DNA of 64,000 bases, from NCBI GenBank assembly GCA_018394295.1, contig CP074573.1:620001-684000 (forward strand), read 5' to 3'. This DNA comes from Mycoplasmatota bacterium (GTDB lineage: Bacteria > Bacillota_I > Bacilli_A > Haloplasmatales > Haloplasmataceae). The position numbers and the translations under genes are program-made. Positions 21,402-32,900 of the stretch are shown in pieces. Within the stretch, counting starts at the first letter, position 1. Each line of letters opens with the position of its first letter. The notes below the pieces were generated by a model. That model was given only the letters and a program-made list of their open reading frames with translations, made no database searches and was not told where the DNA came from.

Positions 21402-21800
21402 ATGATTTATATTACTGTAGGAATATTTGGAATAATTGGTGCATTAATTCGCTATTATTTAGGCGTTACAATTAATACATGGTGGGTCTATTCATTTCCT
21501 TTAGGAACCTTAATCATTAATTGTCTTGGAGCGTTAATTCTAGGTTGGTTTACTTATTCTATCACAAAATCAAAATGTCCTGAATGGTTTCGTTTAGGAT
21601 TTGGTGTTGGTTTAATTGGTTCATTCACAACCTTTTCTACCTTTAGTGTTGAAACCCTTACTTTATTAAATAGTGGATTGATTTTTTATGCTTTTATGTA
21701 TGTCTTATTAAGTTTATTAGGTGGTTTGTTCTTTTCTTTGCTAGGATATAAAATATCTTTGCACATGAGAAAAGGAGTGGGAATAAAACATGCTGATTAA
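21402..21800 (+). CDS. crcB: fluoride ion channel subunit CrcB/Fluc
   Basis: 132 residues with four membrane spans and the Fluc motifs GIFGIIGALIRYYLG, GTLIINCLGALILGWF and GLIGSFTTFSTFSVET. Fluc channels export fluoride as dual-topology dimers. A second, diverged crcB overlaps its end by 11 bases, so this pair probably forms the heterodimer seen in many Bacillota. No fluoride riboswitch is visible in the 46 bases upstream. Confidence 0.93.
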   Translation: MIYITVGIFGIIGALIRYYLGVTINTWWVYSFPLGTLIINCLGALILGWFTYSITKSKCPEWFRLGFGVGLIGSFTTFSTFSVETLTLLNSGLIFYAFMYVLLSLLGGLFFSLLGYKISLHMRKGVGIKHAD

Positions 21801-22152
21801 TGGTCTCTATATCGCAATAGGCGCTTTTTTCGGTGCAATTAGTCGCTTTGTTGTAAGTAAAAAAGTCAAACACAAAATACATTCAAAATTCCCTTTTGGA
21901 ACGATATTAGTCAATTTACTTGGTTCATTTTTATTAGGTCTATTATTTTCCTTAAAAATGAATGATTCGATATCTTTACTGCTCGGAACTGGATTTATGG
22001 GTTCATTTACTACGTTTTCGACCTTTCAAGTCGAGAGTTTAAAACTTGGTCTTGAAAAAGAGTGGAGTTTATTGTCTAAGTACCTACTACTTAGTTATGT
22101 TTTGGGGATTACCTCTGCGTTCATGGGTTTTATAGTAGGAAAACAATTTTAA
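21790..22152 (+). CDS. crcB: fluoride ion channel subunit CrcB/Fluc, second copy
   Basis: 120 residues with AIGAFFGAISRFVV, GTILVNLLGSFLLGLLF and GFMGSFTTFSTFQVES, four spans. It overlaps the first crcB by 11 bases in another frame, so translation is coupled. It would insert in the opposite orientation to its partner. Confidence 0.93.
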   Translation: MLINGLYIAIGAFFGAISRFVVSKKVKHKIHSKFPFGTILVNLLGSFLLGLLFSLKMNDSISLLLGTGFMGSFTTFSTFQVESLKLGLEKEWSLLSKYLLLSYVLGITSAFMGFIVGKQF

Positions 22153-22858: not shown

Positions 22859-24187
22859 GTGAATAATACTTCATTTTATAAAAAATCATCATTACTGATT
22901 TTAGTTAATTTAACAACCGGTTTACTTAGTTTTTTATTTTCTGTCATCCTATCACGTAAGATAGGTGCCGAAGGGATGGGATTATATAGTTTAGTTTTAC
23001 CGATTAGCAGTTTACTATTAAGTATAATATCTGGTGGGTTACTTGTTGCTGTATCTAAAGTTGTGGCTGAATATCATGCAAAAAAAGAAATGAATAACCT
23101 GCATAAATGTATAAAAATTACAATCATATTTAATTTAATATTCTCATTTATTATTATTTTTTTCGCTTATCTACTATCTTATCAAATTAGTATTTATATT
23201 GTTAAAGATTCAAGAACAGTGTATGCCTTAAGGTTTATTTTTATTTCCATTATTTGTATGACACTATCTAATACCTATAAAGGTTATTTTTATGGAAGGA
23301 CAAATGTAGTTGTACCTGCATTTATTGATATTATTGAAAAAGCAACCCGGATAATATTATTACTTTTTTTATTTAAATTAAGAGTAATATCAACCATTAC
23401 AGAATCTATAACAACTGCTTATTTAGTTTTTTTTATTGGTGAATTTGTTTCCTTAATATTACTTTATATATATTATCAGCTAGATCAGAAGGAAAAGCCC
23501 CAGAAGAAGGAAAAAACAGAAGATTTCATACAATTACTGTATAATATATTTTCAATTTCTTTGCCACTGATGATGACAGAATTAATTTCTTCTTCGCTTT
23601 TTACCATATCCTCACTCTTATTACCTAGAAGACTATTAAAAGCAGGATTTCCTTATAACGAAGCACTTTCTCTTATCGGTCGTTTTATAAGTATGTCCAT
23701 GCAAATTGTCTTTTTTCCAATGATAATAATTTATTCTATTTCAGCGATATTAATTCCTGACCTATCAAGTAATATCAGTAAACAAGATTTTTATACTGTT
23801 GAAAAAAGGGCTTCTCAAGTCATTAAAATCTCCTTTATATTAGGAATATTTGTATGTATGGTTTGTTTGTTATTTGGTGATGGATTAGGAAGGATGGTAT
23901 TTAAACGTAATGATTTAGGAAATTATATTCGGTTTATCGCATTTAGTGCACCATTTATTTATTCAGGACAAACAGCGAGAGGGATTTTAAACGGGTTAGG
24001 AAAACAAAAAGTAATCCTAAAATATTCGATTGTAATTTCATTTCTACAAGTAATTTTACTTTATTTTTTAGTAGCGATACCTAGTATTAATATTTATGGA
24101 TTCGGAATCACATTGATATCAACAACATTTATCTCATTATTTATCTATATAAAGGAAATTAAAAAAGTTATTCATTTAAAATTATAA
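22859..24187 (+). CDS. SpoVB/MurJ-like polysaccharide flippase family protein
   Basis: 442 residues and 12-14 membrane spans. The N-terminal pattern LVNLTTGLLSFLFSVILSRKIGAEGMGLYSLVLP and GGLLVAVSKVVAEY is typical of SpoVB and related MOP-superfamily flippases, which move lipid-linked precursors across the membrane. It begins at GTG (22859) with GAGGTG upstream; the ATG four bases earlier is out of frame. In sporulating relatives SpoVB acts in cortex synthesis, but a cell-wall role is equally possible. The next genes on the other strand are coat-like. Confidence 0.85.
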   Translation: MNNTSFYKKSSLLILVNLTTGLLSFLFSVILSRKIGAEGMGLYSLVLPISSLLLSIISGGLLVAVSKVVAEYHAKKEMNNLHKCIKITIIFNLIFSFIIIFFAYLLSYQISIYIVKDSRTVYALRFIFISIICMTLSNTYKGYFYGRTNVVVPAFIDIIEKATRIILLLFLFKLRVISTITESITTAYLVFFIGEFVSLILLYIYYQLDQKEKPQKKEKTEDFIQLLYNIFSISLPLMMTELISSSLFTISSLLLPRRLLKAGFPYNEALSLIGRFISMSMQIVFFPMIIIYSISAILIPDLSSNISKQDFYTVEKRASQVIKISFILGIFVCMVCLLFGDGLGRMVFKRNDLGNYIRFIAFSAPFIYSGQTARGILNGLGKQKVILKYSIVISFLQVILLYFLVAIPSINIYGFGITLISTTFISLFIYIKEIKKVIHLKL

Positions 24188-24197
24188 TAAAAATAAT

Positions 24198-24232
24198 AAA
24201 TGCTTCAAATATTACTTTATTCGAAGCATTTA
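24198..24232. terminator. bidirectional terminator
   Basis: AAATGCTTC pairs with GAAGCATTT, with A and T runs on either side. It serves the flippase gene and sits at the end of the minus-strand short gene at 24230-24409. Confidence 0.7.
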
Positions 24233-24409
24233 TTTACTACAACATCTACATAGAAGAAGTAAAAGGCATATTCCAGTAATTACCCAACACCAAGGGAAAA
24301 AACAATATCGTCTACAAGTATAACATCTTCTTCTGTAAGGATATCCATACCATGGTCTAAAACGTCGGTAATATTGATATCTTTGAAAAACACAAAATCT
24401 TCTCCACAT
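24230..24409 (-). CDS. short Arg/Tyr/Cys-rich protein with C-terminal hydrophobic tail
   Basis: 59 residues, too short for usual ORF cut-offs, starting at ATG 24409 behind GAGGTGG. It begins MWRRFCVFQRYQYYRRFRPW, continues with YGYPYRRRCYTCRRYC, then turns into a hydrophobic stretch, VITGICLLLLLCRCC, and ends SK. In all there are ten Cys, thirteen Arg and eight Tyr. Composition and neighbours resemble small spore-coat or surface proteins rather than an enzyme. I do not recognise the family. Confidence 0.65.
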   Translation of the reverse strand: MWRRFCVFQRYQYYRRFRPWYGYPYRRRCYTCRRYCFFPWCWVITGICLLLLLCRCCSK

Positions 24410-24555
24410 CGTACCACCTCTTTATTACTATTATATGTTTTAAATGGTATTTGAATTGTGTTTATTACTAGGATAAATGGGATTTAATATATAATCTTGT
24501 ATTTATAATTAGGTGTTTAGGTAAGAATAAGCCGTTCTCTTTCTTCTAGATTATT

Positions 24556-24720
24556 TTAGATACATCCAAATAATATTCCTAATACTACACCAGCTGAAAA
24601 TCCACGAAATCCATGGCAGCCACAAGGAAATCTACGATGAGGTCTATATCTATGGTGACATGGTCTACAACATATTGGACGACAAATACAACAATTTCTT
24701 CCATGTCCATAATAAGGCAT
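24556..24720 (-). CDS. short Cys/His/Arg-rich protein with glycine-rich hydrophobic tail
   Basis: 54 residues from ATG 24720 with an excellent GGAGGTGATAAG site. It begins MPYYGHGRNCCICRPICCRP and continues CHHRYRPHRRFPCGCHGF. It ends SAGVVLGILFGCI, a short membrane-like tail with glycine spacing. Nine Cys and five His could bind metal or cross-link. Its layout parallels the gene at 24230-24409 (basic Cys-rich head, hydrophobic tail), so the two may act together in a coat or envelope layer. Confidence 0.7.
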   Translation of the reverse strand: MPYYGHGRNCCICRPICCRPCHHRYRPHRRFPCGCHGFRGFSAGVVLGILFGCI

Positions 24721-24855
24721 CTTATCACCTCCAGTGTTTTTATATATTAATATATGTTCTATCTAATATTATAGCGTGTATACATCACCTTAAATATACG
24801 TAAATAATCTAAATATAACAGGTACATTCAGGGAGTTTGTAGTTTTTTATATGTT

Positions 24856-24890
24856 AATAAAAAAAAGGTAATCTTCATAATTACCTTAAA
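24856..24890 (-). terminator. Rho-independent terminator
   Basis: On the minus strand AAGGTAATTATGAAGATTACCTT folds and is followed by at least eight T. It ends the repeat-protein gene. Confidence 0.8.
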
Positions 24891-24893
24891 AGA

Positions 24894-25352
24894 CTATCGC
24901 TTAAATAAATTTCTAAGCACATTTCCAAAATTAAATAAATTAGGTATTTGATTGTTAATTGGATTAAAATTAGGTTGATTTTGATAAGGATAATTGTAAT
25001 AAGGGTTTTGAGGATTAAATTGATTTTGATTAGGATAATTATAATATGGATTTTGAGAATTAAATTGATTTTGATAAGGATAATTATAATAAGGATTTTG
25101 AGGATTATAATGGTTTTGATAATGATTATTATAATAAGGATTTTGAGGATTATAATGATTTTGATAAGGATTATTGTAGTAAGGATTTTGATTCATATAT
25201 GGGCCTTGCTGATAGGGATTCAAGTAAGGATTATTTGGTTGATTAGGGAAAAAACCATTATTTCCACCCAAAAATTGTTTAACCATTCCAACACCACTTA
25301 ATAATGATTGAATGGTTCCAATATTTTTTAGTCCAAATGAGAGTAAATTCAT
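24894..25352 (-). CDS. Asn/Tyr/Pro/Gln-rich repeat protein, coat-like
   Basis: 152 residues. The N-terminal 45 residues (LLSFGLKNIGTIQSLLSGVGMVKQFLGG) are non-repetitive and amphipathic. Then come five tandem units of 15 residues built on NPYYNNPYQNHYNPQ, followed by a tail ending NLFNFGNVLRNLFKR. Such Tyr/Asn/Pro-rich repeats are typical of spore-coat and other self-assembling surface proteins (YppG- or CotX-like in flavour, not in detail). It starts at ATG 25352 behind AAAGGTGATAAT. The near-identical repeats may vary in number between strains. Confidence 0.75.
   Translation of the reverse strand: MNLLSFGLKNIGTIQSLLSGVGMVKQFLGGNNGFFPNQPNNPYLNPYQQGPYMNQNPYYNNPYQNHYNPQNPYYNNHYQNHYNPQNPYYNYPYQNQFNSQNPYYNYPNQNQFNPQNPYYNYPYQNQPNFNPINNQIPNLFNFGNVLRNLFKR
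24976..25200. repeat. in-frame 45-bp tandem repeats
   Basis: Five units of 45 bases within the coat-like gene, with signature TTTTGAGGATTATAATGATTTTGATAA-like blocks read on the plus strand. The last two units are more diverged. Confidence 0.75.
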
Positions 25353-25526: not shown

Positions 25527-26774
25527 ATGTATAATAAAAAATCTATTGAAAAAGTTGAAAAATCAATTTTTGAAGGTCCATTTAAAAAAGTTGTAAATGA
25601 TTATTGTTTATCGAATATACCAGGTACAATATTAAATAATTTTGGAATATCTAGTGAGAAGCAATTACCTGTAGATGTTTTTGGGAGTAAATATAAAAAA
25701 TTTGATAAAGTGGTTTTATTTGTGGTCGATGCCTTAGGTTATTCTGCTTTTGAACGATATTATCATCACTCAAAGTTTTTAAGAAAAGTTGTGAAAGAGG
25801 GTGTTGTTTCAAAATTGACTACGCAATTTCCTTCAACAACAACAGCGAATGTGACAACATTTCATTCAGGGATTCCAGTAAGTCAAAGTGGTGTCATTGA
25901 ATGGTTTTATTATGAACCATTAATTGATGCGGTTTATAGTCCCTTACTATTTAAAAAAGCAAAAGAGGATGATATATTAACCGTAGAAGCTAGTAGTCTA
26001 TTACCAAATAAAAATCTGTATCAAAAGTTAAATGTCGCAAGTTATGTCTTTCAGTATCATTTATATAATGAAGGACCTTTTGGGAAACAGATGCAAAAAG
26101 GGAGTCAATCGATTGGATTTAAGAATTTAGAAGATGGATTAAATCAGTTAAAAAAGGTATTACAAAAAGATGAAAAATCGTATAGTTATTTTTATCATTC
26201 TGATTTCGATTCCATTTCACATCAATATGGACCAAATGCGTTAGAAACAGAAGAATCCTTCATTTCAATATTTAAGTCATTCGATCAATTTTTTGAAGAT
26301 GTCTCAAAGATGGATTTTAAAAACACCCTTTTTTTATTGACAGCTGATCATGGTCAAACAACAGTTATTAAAGAAAATGCAGTTTATATAAACCTAGAAT
26401 ATCCTGAAATCTTACCCTATCTAAAAAAGAACAAAGCAGGTGAATATATTATCCCTTGCGGGTCATTTAGAGATTTATTTTTACATGTTGAAAAAGACCA
26501 TATAGATTATGTCTGTGCTTTTCTTAAAGAAAAATTAGATGGGAAAGCAGAAGTTTATCCTGTAAAGGAAATCATTCAAGCAGGTATATTTGGTGAAGAA
26601 AAACCATCACAAAAGTTTTTAGAACGAGTAGGTGATATTGTTATCTTAGCCTATCAAGACCAAGCGATTTGGTGGTATGAGGAAGATAAATTTTATGTTC
26701 ATCACTTAGGAATGCATGGAGGATTAACGAAAGAAGAATTAGAAATTCCTTTCTTAGTTTATCCTTGTGAATAA
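25527..26774 (+). CDS. alkaline-phosphatase-superfamily phosphodiesterase/nucleotide pyrophosphatase
   Basis: 415 residues. Metal-binding and nucleophile landmarks are in order: VVLFVVDALG (first Asp), FPSTTTANVTTFHSG (Thr nucleophile region), HSDFDSISHQYGP (Asp and His), LTADHGQT (Asp-His) and HHLGMHGGLT (final His). This is the type I phosphodiesterase/nucleotide pyrophosphatase layout. No signal peptide is seen, so it is probably cytoplasmic. The substrate is unknown. It is followed 14 bases on by a small membrane protein gene. Confidence 0.85.
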   Translation: MYNKKSIEKVEKSIFEGPFKKVVNDYCLSNIPGTILNNFGISSEKQLPVDVFGSKYKKFDKVVLFVVDALGYSAFERYYHHSKFLRKVVKEGVVSKLTTQFPSTTTANVTTFHSGIPVSQSGVIEWFYYEPLIDAVYSPLLFKKAKEDDILTVEASSLLPNKNLYQKLNVASYVFQYHLYNEGPFGKQMQKGSQSIGFKNLEDGLNQLKKVLQKDEKSYSYFYHSDFDSISHQYGPNALETEESFISIFKSFDQFFEDVSKMDFKNTLFLLTADHGQTTVIKENAVYINLEYPEILPYLKKNKAGEYIIPCGSFRDLFLHVEKDHIDYVCAFLKEKLDGKAEVYPVKEIIQAGIFGEEKPSQKFLERVGDIVILAYQDQAIWWYEEDKFYVHHLGMHGGLTKEELEIPFLVYPCE

Positions 26775-29939: not shown

Positions 29940-30392
29940 TTACAGGATGAAATCATTAAATTGTTTTAACACCTCATCATTTTCTTCAAAGAATACTACT
30001 AATTTACGAATTGCTTGCAAGGTATCTTGACTTAATGTGTGTTCGATTTTCTCTGCCTCTTCTATTAAATTTCCTTTAATATCTAATATTTTAAGAAAGT
30101 GTTCAACACAATTATGCCTATCTAGTAAAGCTTTTCCGAATTCTTCGCCTTGAATTGTTAGTTCAATCGTTCCATATTCAACATGTTTAATTAATTTTTT
30201 GTTAGATAATTTTTTCAACATATTGGATACAGAAGGAGGTTTAACATGAAGGGCATTTGATAAATCATTTACACGTGTGTATTTAGTGGATTGACAGAGT
30301 CTATAAATCATTTCTAGGTAATCTTCTTCATTAGCTGTTAATGCATTTTCTTTCATGTATTCGGAGAATGTATAAAAGCTATCTTTAACCAT
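29940..30392 (-). CDS. DtxR/MntR-family metal-dependent repressor
   Basis: 150 residues from ATG 30392, which has AAAGGAATG at good spacing. It has the winged-helix DNA-binding domain (ALTANEEDYLEMIYRL, VNDLSNALHVKPPSVSNMLKKL) and the dimerisation/metal domain (FGKALLDRHNCVEHFLKIL, EEAEKIEHTLSQDTL), with His and Glu ligands typical of DtxR/MntR. There is no SH3-like third domain. It is divergent from feoA/feoB with operator-like repeats between, so it probably represses iron uptake when iron is plentiful. Confidence 0.9.
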   Translation of the reverse strand: MVKDSFYTFSEYMKENALTANEEDYLEMIYRLCQSTKYTRVNDLSNALHVKPPSVSNMLKKLSNKKLIKHVEYGTIELTIQGEEFGKALLDRHNCVEHFLKILDIKGNLIEEAEKIEHTLSQDTLQAIRKLVVFFEENDEVLKQFNDFIL

Positions 30393-30499
30393 TTTTATCA
30401 TTCCTTTATTTAAACTATTAAATACTATGCTAAATAATCTAGAAATATAGCAATAGCCTATACATTGTTTACAATACTACATATATTGATATTAGTATT

Positions 30500-30532
30500 T
30501 TAGCCAAGACTAACATAATTAGGCTAGGCTAA
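30500..30532. promoter_or_regulatory. two tandem DtxR/IdeR-like operator boxes
   Basis: TTAGCCAAGACTAA (30500-30513) and TTAGGCTAGGCTAA (30519-30532), 19 bases apart. Each resembles the DtxR consensus TTAGG..AGGCTAACC. They lie between the regulator and feoA, just upstream of the feoA ribosome site, in a position to block its transcription. Confidence 0.6.
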
Positions 30533-30554
30533 CAATAAAGGAGATAAAAGAAAA

Positions 30555-30785
30555 ATGCATTATTTAAGTCATATAGATGTTGGTAAGGTTGTTAAAGTTA
30601 ATGCTTTACTGGCGAAGGATTTATTGAAAGAAAGGTTCTTAGCTTTAGGACTGACAAAAGGTGCTAAAGTAGAGGTCATTAGAAAAGGACCCAAAAATAA
30701 TTTAACTGTTTTTGGAATTAGAGGAGCAATGATTGCTTTACGTAGGGAAGAATCTAATTTAATTATGGTAGAGAAGGAGGATTAG
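30555..30785 (+). CDS. feoA: ferrous iron transport protein FeoA
   Basis: 76 residues with an SH3-like fold pattern (VGKVVKVNAL, LKERFLALGLTKGAKVEVIRKGP, VFGIRGAMIALRREESNLIMV) standard for FeoA, a small cytoplasmic partner of FeoB. It ends one base before the feoB start. Confidence 0.92.
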   Translation: MHYLSHIDVGKVVKVNALLAKDLLKERFLALGLTKGAKVEVIRKGPKNNLTVFGIRGAMIALRREESNLIMVEKED

Positions 30786-30786
30786 A

Positions 30787-32900
30787 GTGGGGTTAACAAA
30801 AGATTCGATTAAAAAAAATGCTCTTGTTGATTTGTTTAATATAGATTTAGCAGATAATGAACATTTAATCGCTTTAGCAGGTAATCCAAATACCGGTAAA
30901 AGTACGGTGTTTAACCAATTAACAGGTTTAAATCAGCATACAGGTAATTGGCCTGGAAAAACAGTGACGAATGCAAGAGGGAAATTTAAGCACAATAATC
31001 AAACCTATAGTTTAGTTGATGTGCCTGGTGCTTATTCGCTTTTTGCATCAAGCGAAGAGGAAATAGTAGCCAGAGATTTTATTTGTTTTGGAAATGCTGA
31101 GACAGTTATCGTTGTAACTGATGCAACTTGTTTAGAAAGGAATTTTAATTTAGTTTATCAGGTAATGGAGCTAACTGATAAGGTAATACTTGTCATTAAC
31201 TTAATGGATGAAGCAAAGAAAAAAAATATCACAGTTAATCAATTAGGGATTGAACTCGATTTAGGAATTCCTGTTGTTTTAACTTCTGCTAGAAAAGGAG
31301 TTGGATTAGATAAATTAAAAGATACCCTTGATCAAGTGATTAATAATCAGTATAATTTTCATAATAAAGAAATTAAATATAATGAAGCATTAGAAGAGAA
31401 AATATCATGGGTACAATCTAGACTTGAAGGTAAAATTAATCATATTAAACTTCGTTTTTTGGCACTTCGCATCATCGATGGTGATGATCGTTTCTTTGCT
31501 TCAATGAATCGATTTTTATCAGATGATGAATTAAGTTTGATAAAAGAGATTAGAGATGAAATTAAACAAGAGATTAATCAAGAAGAAATTAGAGAATATA
31601 TCAATGAAATTAATTACAAAGAAGCAGAAAAATTAAAAAATAAATATGTTAAAGAAAGTTCAAATAAGTTTCGAAGAGATCGAAAAATTGATGATATATT
31701 AACTTCAAGAAGATTTGGTATACCAATTATGTTATTACTATTAATTGGGGTTTTCTATATAACTGTTACAGGAGCCAATTATCCTTCTATGATGATAGGT
31801 AAAGCATTATTTAGTTTTGAATCGGTATTAACTCGTTGTTTAATTATATGAATGCTCCGAATTGGTTACATGGTGTATTGGTATTAGGACTATATCGAAC
31901 TCTGGCTTGGGTTGTTGCGGTTATGTTACCTCCAATGGCAATCTTTTTTCCAATTTTTACTTTATTAGAAGACTTAGGGTACTTACCAAGAATTGCATTT
32001 AATTTAGATCATCTGTTTAAAAAAGCATGTGCGCATGGGAAACAATGTTTATCAATGTGCATGGGATTTGGATGTAATGCAGCAGGGGTAATTGGAACTC
32101 GAATTATTGAATCTAAACGGGAAAAAATGATTGCAATCTTAACAAATAATTTTGTGCCATGTAATGGACGATTTCCAACCTTAATTGCTATCGCAACGGT
32201 ATTTTTTGCTTATGTTTCCTATGGAAATTATAATCGGGTAATACCAGCATTAGTAGTTACAGGACTTGTTGTAATTGGAATCATGGTTACACTGATGATA
32301 TCTTACTTATTATCAAAAACAATTTTAAAGGGATTACCTTCCACTTTTACCCTTGAATTACCACCATATAGAAAACCACAACTTGGGAGAGTTGTCTATA
32401 CCTCTATTATTGATCGAACCATATTTGTTTTAGGAAGAGCATTAGTAGTGGCTGCGCCTGCAGGAGTTATCACATGGATTTTGGGGAACACGTTTATTGG
32501 TGATATAAGTGTTATTCAATATATAGCTAACTTCTTAGATCCTTTTGCGAGTTTATTAGGGCTAGATGGTATCATCTTAATGGCATTTATTTTAGGATTA
32601 CCTGCAAATGAAATCGTAATTCCTATATTAATAATGGCTTATATGTCTAGGGGAAGTATGGTTGAGTTTGAAAGTTTAGATTCCTTAAGACAACTCTTAA
32701 TTAGTAATGGATGGACTTATCTTACTGCGATTAATTTACTATTGTTTAGTCTACTGCATTGGCCATGTACTACAACCTTATTAACAATTAAAAAAGAAAC
32801 GGGTAGTTGGAAGTGGACATTTGCTGGATTTATCATTCCAACAGTTGTCGCAATTATTGTTTGTATGATGACAACTGGAATATATCATTTAATTATATAA
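30787..32900 (+). pseudogene. feoB: ferrous iron transporter FeoB, split by a frameshift
   Basis: The first frame (30787-31851, GTG start after GAAGGAGG) has the G domain: AGNPNTGKST (G1), VDVPGAY (G3), NLMDEAKKK (G4), then the linker and first helix. The second frame (31836-32900) has the membrane core: WVVAVMLPPMAIFFPIFTLLEDLGYLPRIAF, CMGFGCNAAGVIGTRII and NNFVPCNGRFPTLIA. Together they equal full-length FeoB, about 700 residues. They meet around ACTCGTTGTTTAATTATATG (31830-31850), where one extra base would read RLFNYMNAPNWL, the expected sequence. So the pieces differ from an intact gene by one base, either a mutation or a sequence error. FeoB is the GTP-driven Fe2+ importer. Confidence 0.85.

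Follow-up and report, generated by a model that had tools for sequence, protein, structure and literature searches.

Three adjacent minus-strand genes of a Haloplasma genome (family Haloplasmataceae), here named P1, P2, and P3, probably encode structural proteins that the mother cell makes late in sporulation for the spore coat or outer spore layers, a reading to which we give a probability of about three in four. The genes are real and conserved in close relatives, and they appear to carry a late-sporulation switch like that of the genes for the tiny YjcZ proteins, which makes parts of the spore outer envelope their most likely products. They lie in a stretch of 64,000 nucleotides (the window) of a 3.29-Mb genome (G000). 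We compared this genome with seven other Haloplasmataceae, among them a sister in the same genus (G001), another family member (G004), and G003, G005, G006, and G007; genome-wide statistics are based on pattern searches and individually retrieved loci.

Composition of the cluster genes

An earlier note, made from the letters of this DNA, had described three minus-strand genes here, each with a good ribosome site. We find them as described: none of the frames (24230-25352) holds an internal stop, and each is preceded by a purine-rich ribosome site (aaaaggtgataat, ggaggtgataag, and gaggtggtacg). P1 bears out the description of an Asn/Tyr/Pro repeat protein in that Asn (26%), Tyr (14%), Pro (13%), and Gln (12%) together make up ~66% of its residues and the gene contains a 45-bp tandem repeat (Table 1); its conserved head reads LLSFGLKNIGTIxSLxxGxGMIKQF. 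The basic Cys-rich heads and hydrophobic tails attributed to the two short proteins are seen both in P2, whose Gly-rich tail reads GFxAGxxLGxLFGCF, and in P3, which carries the motif YYRRFRPWYGYP and a predicted C-terminal membrane-type helix. In the AlphaFold2 model of P3, this helix (residues 38-58) is placed at a pLDDT of ~80, with the remainder at low confidence.

The window contains 42 ATG-started open reading frames (ORFs) of 45-75 aa. Of these, P2 and P3 are the richest in Cys by a wide margin (17% and 15%; the next highest is 9%), and a strong Shine-Dalgarno sequence precedes just five, P2 and P3 included. By this comparison, their composition is far from chance. Scans against Pfam, NCBIfam, and PHROGs returned no family for P1, P2, or P3, and no PDB match came from profile searches started from the alignments of P3 and P2, in agreement with the earlier statement that the short proteins have no known family. 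Nor did the Pfam, NCBIfam, and PDB profile searches link any of the three by sequence to a known coat protein.

Table 1. Features of the P1-P2-P3 cluster, its flanks, and related loci. Positions without a locus prefix refer to the window.
Feature	Position	Strand	Remarks
spoVB, stage V sporulation protein B (flippase)	22859..24187	(+)	TIGR02900; convergent with the cluster
Terminator-like hairpin, 17 pairs	24195..24234	(-)	3' of P3, between P3 and the convergent spoVB
P3, 59-aa protein	24230..24409	(-)	Net charge +13; 9 Cys; homologues in G001, G004, G007
CATATAATA, predicted -10 of P3	24429..24437	(-)	
ATAAACACAA box upstream of the P3 -10	24454..24466	(-)	Invariant in G000, G001, G004
P2, 54-aa basic protein	24556..24720	(-)	9 Cys and 5 His; homologues in G001, G003, G004
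CATATATTA, predicted -10 of P2	24748..24756	(-)	Identical across four P2 homologues; ACAC box ~19-21 nt upstream
P1, Asn/Tyr/Pro/Gln-rich repeat protein, 152 aa	24894..25352	(-)	Homologues in G001, G003, G005
45-bp tandem repeat, 4.8 copies	24975..25191	(-)	Within P1; P1 homologues of 84-96 aa lack most of the repeat
CATACTTTA, predicted -10 of P1	25384..25392	(-)	Preceded by TGTCCTTAC, AC 17 nt upstream; conserved in G001, G003
Alkaline-phosphatase-superfamily type I phosphodiesterase	25527..26774	(+)	Divergent from P1
Recurrent protein of ~115-150 aa	L013:13424-13831, L014:5478-5864, L015:8283-8627, L016:894-1337		Neighbours of the cluster in four genomes
Four tandem YjcZ-family genes	L066:4278-5176 (G000:C1:962277-963175)		Each with a CATATAnTA element
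YlbD_coat gene	L066:9089-9469		~4 kb from the yjcZ cluster

Conservation and gene order

Each of the three proteins has homologues in three of the seven other family genomes, and together they are represented in five of them. In profile searches that covered 395 genomes of the class, the 387 outside the eight-member family yielded no homologue of P1, P2, or P3. The three constitute new protein families restricted to Haloplasmataceae, within a kind of system that is itself familiar. The order spoVB, P3, P2, (P1), phosphodiesterase is retained in G000, in G004, and, apart from one inserted gene, in G001, and the phosphodiesterase adjoins the cluster in four genomes. The P3 homologue in G007 has a weak score, yet the motif YYRRFRCYYGFPVRRCC and the phosphodiesterase neighbor are retained.

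Across the stop-free homologous frames, pN/pS is mostly 0.4-0.8 (0.42-0.80), with a single P2 pair at 1.01, values that fit coding sequences under moderate, uneven constraint. Conservation of the short frames and stop codons within them were the checks proposed in the earlier note. P2 and P3 are each kept in three other genomes, and neither the window copies nor the homologous frames of relatives contain a stop. Because stop-free frames are conserved in relatives, neither of the results that the note had named as contradicting it was found. There is next to no probability that P2 and P3 are spurious: they are short and match no database family, but the conservation refutes such a reading for practical purposes, and strong ribosome sites and conserved promoters also speak against it. 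On their sequence, we regard P1, P2, and P3 as genuine genes.

Three further candidate matches were set aside. An apparent P1 paralogue at G000:C1:1907026, 2 kb from spoIVA, is a chance low-complexity match amid other, unrelated ORFs; a P2 match in G058 (E=0.001) is antisense to longer ORFs; and a match at L028 (Gammaproteobacteria), from a genome scan, is only 9 residues long. Separately, a conserved protein of ~115-150 aa, not present in the window, recurs in the vicinity of the cluster in four genomes of the family (Table 1); three of the four copies were scanned, and these matched no Pfam family.

A sporulation neighborhood

The SpoVB-like flippase noted earlier on the other strand proved to be SpoVB: its product scores 435.4 bits against the curated TIGR02900 equivalog cut-off of 372.3 (NCBIfam). 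SpoVB is a lipid/cortex-precursor flippase and not a coat assembly factor, and its adjacency marks a sporulation neighborhood. Haloplasma is contractile and described as wall-less, and it branches between the spore-forming Bacilli and the Mollicutes; we found no report of Haloplasma spores in the literature searched. The check for sporulation genes elsewhere, also proposed in the earlier note, was positive: G000 encodes SpoIVA, four alpha/beta small acid-soluble proteins (SASPs), factors of the sigma-K, sigma-E, sigma-G, and sigma-F types, and a YlbD coat protein. In a survey of the class, Haloplasmatales are represented in the trees of sporulation genes, which follow vertical descent (PMC10868615).

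Alternatively, the cluster may encode mother-cell sporulation membrane proteins other than coat components. These could be small, SpoVM- or CmpA-like regulators or stabilizers acting at the outer membrane of the forespore, or cortex factors that work with SpoVB. Tiny sporulation membrane proteins are common, the predicted C-terminal membrane-type helix of P3 is convincing, and the adjacency of the cluster to spoVB is conserved. We nevertheless consider this reading unlikely. The extreme Cys/Arg/Tyr content and the rapid divergence beyond one motif are more like structural coat material, and P1 is a repeat filler. Furthermore, P2 and P3 were not found in G005 and G006, relatives that retain spore genes, and are therefore not core.

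Other gene pairs in the window are recorded here as observations in their own right. Two CrcB-like genes lie side by side at 21402-22152, the first being a fluoride channel by NCBIfam; paired CrcB genes are the usual arrangement. At 29940-32900, an MntR-like regulator is divergent from a feoB-like gene that is apparently split into two ORFs (30787-31851 and 31836-32900, of which the scan covered the first) and that could be either a real two-part gene or the product of a frameshift.

Predicted promoters of the late mother-cell type

A CATAnnnTA element lies 25-43 nt ahead of the start in 11/12 cluster genes from six genomes, a count that includes orthologous and hence non-independent promoters, versus 2/124 other genes at the same loci. 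Ahead of P1, P2, and P3 themselves, the distance is 28-40 nt. For these window genes alone, the comparison of 3/3 with 2/124 gives a Fisher p=3e-5; multiplying their shuffle frequencies gives 7e-5. P3 of G007 is without the element. P3 promoters have ATAAACACAA and CATATAnTA in common and P1 promoters TGTCCTTAC-N17-CATAnTnTA, with the AC-N17 arrangement conserved in three species. Since P1, P2, and P3 each have their own conserved promoter element, a single-operon reading is weakened.

The sigma-K consensus combines CATAnnnTA with a -35 of the AC type, and sigma-E has the CATA -10 in common with it. The predicted CATAnnnTA of the cluster genes matches the -10 of these mother-cell sigma factors; the two-block promoter form and its spacing are given in PMC517825. 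The AC box stands 17 nt from CATA at P1 and 19-21 nt from it at P2, P3, and some yjcZ genes. At this longer distance, beyond the sigma-K spacing of 17 nt, the box may be an activator site that overlaps the -35 region.

The P3-type pattern, AAACAC..CATATAnTA, served as a probe of the eight family genomes, with the reversed pattern as the control, and gave 21 matches versus 9. Eleven of the 21 lie 16-32 nt ahead of small Cys/Tyr genes, of which three are P3 copies, one is a P2 copy, and seven are YjcZ-type genes. Two proteins of G000 and one of G001 exceed the YjcZ family cut-off in Pfam, and both of the G000 proteins do so in NCBIfam as well; the other four of the seven were recognized by eye from having the same tail. 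SASP genes are forespore genes of the sigma-G type. In G000, the CATATAnTA element precedes 4/4 yjcZ genes versus 0/4 SASP genes, and its distance to the start is similar in P2, P3, and yjcZ. In Bacillus subtilis, yjcZ is a member of the sigma-K regulon (PMC517825). No other single argument favors P2 and P3 as probable late mother-cell sporulation genes as strongly as the independent recovery of cluster genes and YjcZ genes by one pattern.

YjcZ proteins (PF09680, TIGR01732) are, like P2 and P3, 40-60 aa long with a Tyr/Cys-rich head and a hydrophobic tail, and in Haloplasmataceae their genes have the promoter pattern in common with P2 and P3. However, their heads are Gly-rich whereas those of P2 and P3 are Arg/Pro-rich, and yjcZ is encoded elsewhere in the genome. 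Neither PF09680 (Pfam) nor TIGR01732 (NCBIfam) matches P2 or P3, and a comparison with a local YjcZ profile was not significant.

The promoters and neighbors bear on two further readings. The earlier note had proposed spore-coat or surface-layer assembly. The first half of this proposal is well supported, by SpoVB, the sporulation genes, YlbD, and the mother-cell-type -10 common to YjcZ; nothing supports the second. Low-complexity, Tyr-rich, and Cys-rich proteins would also suit a vegetative envelope matrix, but vegetative surface or S-layer assembly is very improbable given the sporulation-type promoter elements, the sporulation flippase next door, and a Pfam scan of the three proteins in which no S-layer or other surface domain appeared. 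We assign equally little weight to P2 and P3 being antimicrobial or RiPP precursor peptides, or membrane-acting toxins. They are small, cationic, and Cys-rich with hydrophobic tails, and an ABC transporter operon lies 3-7 kb from the cluster. Yet its genes score far below the cut-offs of lantibiotic ABC models, and among ten neighboring genes scanned there was no RiPP family above the cut-off and no RiPP-modifying enzyme; a daptide match had E=0.25. No immunity gene was recognizable, the conserved body motif is not a leader/core pattern, and the promoter pattern is common to YjcZ genes.

A proposed model for the spore envelope

For the coat or outer-layer reading, we envisage that after engulfment the mother cell would turn on P1, P2, and P3 through sigma-K (or sigma-E) from their separate promoters. 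P1 would assemble as a Tyr/Asn/Pro-rich, low-complexity matrix or filler with a conserved head. Bacilli have Tyr/Pro/Gln low-complexity coat or sporulation proteins, e.g., of the YppG or YqfQ types, and the body of P1 is similarly repetitive (Tyr/Pro/Asn/Gln) with a variable repeat number. P1 differs in having no Pfam or NCBIfam match and an FGLKNIGTI head found only in Haloplasmataceae.

The tails of P2 and P3 would insert in a membrane, that of the developing spore or else that of the mother cell, and expose the basic Cys/Tyr/Arg head, whose cysteines and tyrosines could cross-link with other coat proteins. CotY/CotZ, ExsY, CdeC, and CsxA are not known to have such a hydrophobic tail. These proteins are comparable to P2 and P3 in being Cys-rich and lineage-specific, with structural roles in the coat or exosporium (PMC7333573) of the kind that we infer here; they are larger, and none matches P2 or P3 in sequence. 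Unrelated Cys-rich spore-layer proteins of other spore formers self-assemble and form disulfide-cross-linked layers (PMC7333573), so P2 and P3 may do likewise. The disulfide or metal linkage raised in the earlier note is suggested by composition alone. Sporulation-time expression, coat localization, cross-linking, and membrane anchoring are all inferred from sequence.

It is possible, if rather doubtful, that P2 and P3 are the first members of new coat protein families, Cys/Arg/Tyr-rich, tethered to a membrane, and peculiar to Haloplasmataceae, with the ACAC box replacing the usual -35. If true, a bacterial family to which a contractile organism described as wall-less belongs would use spore-envelope anchors unlike those of Bacillus and Clostridium. 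Lineage-specific coat-type genes, conserved late promoters, and a sporulation gene set together suggest that the coat program is being maintained and is not decaying. P1, P2, and P3 offer concrete marker genes for seeking Haloplasma spores, and the promoter pattern offers a route to listing the remaining coat regulon in Haloplasmataceae.
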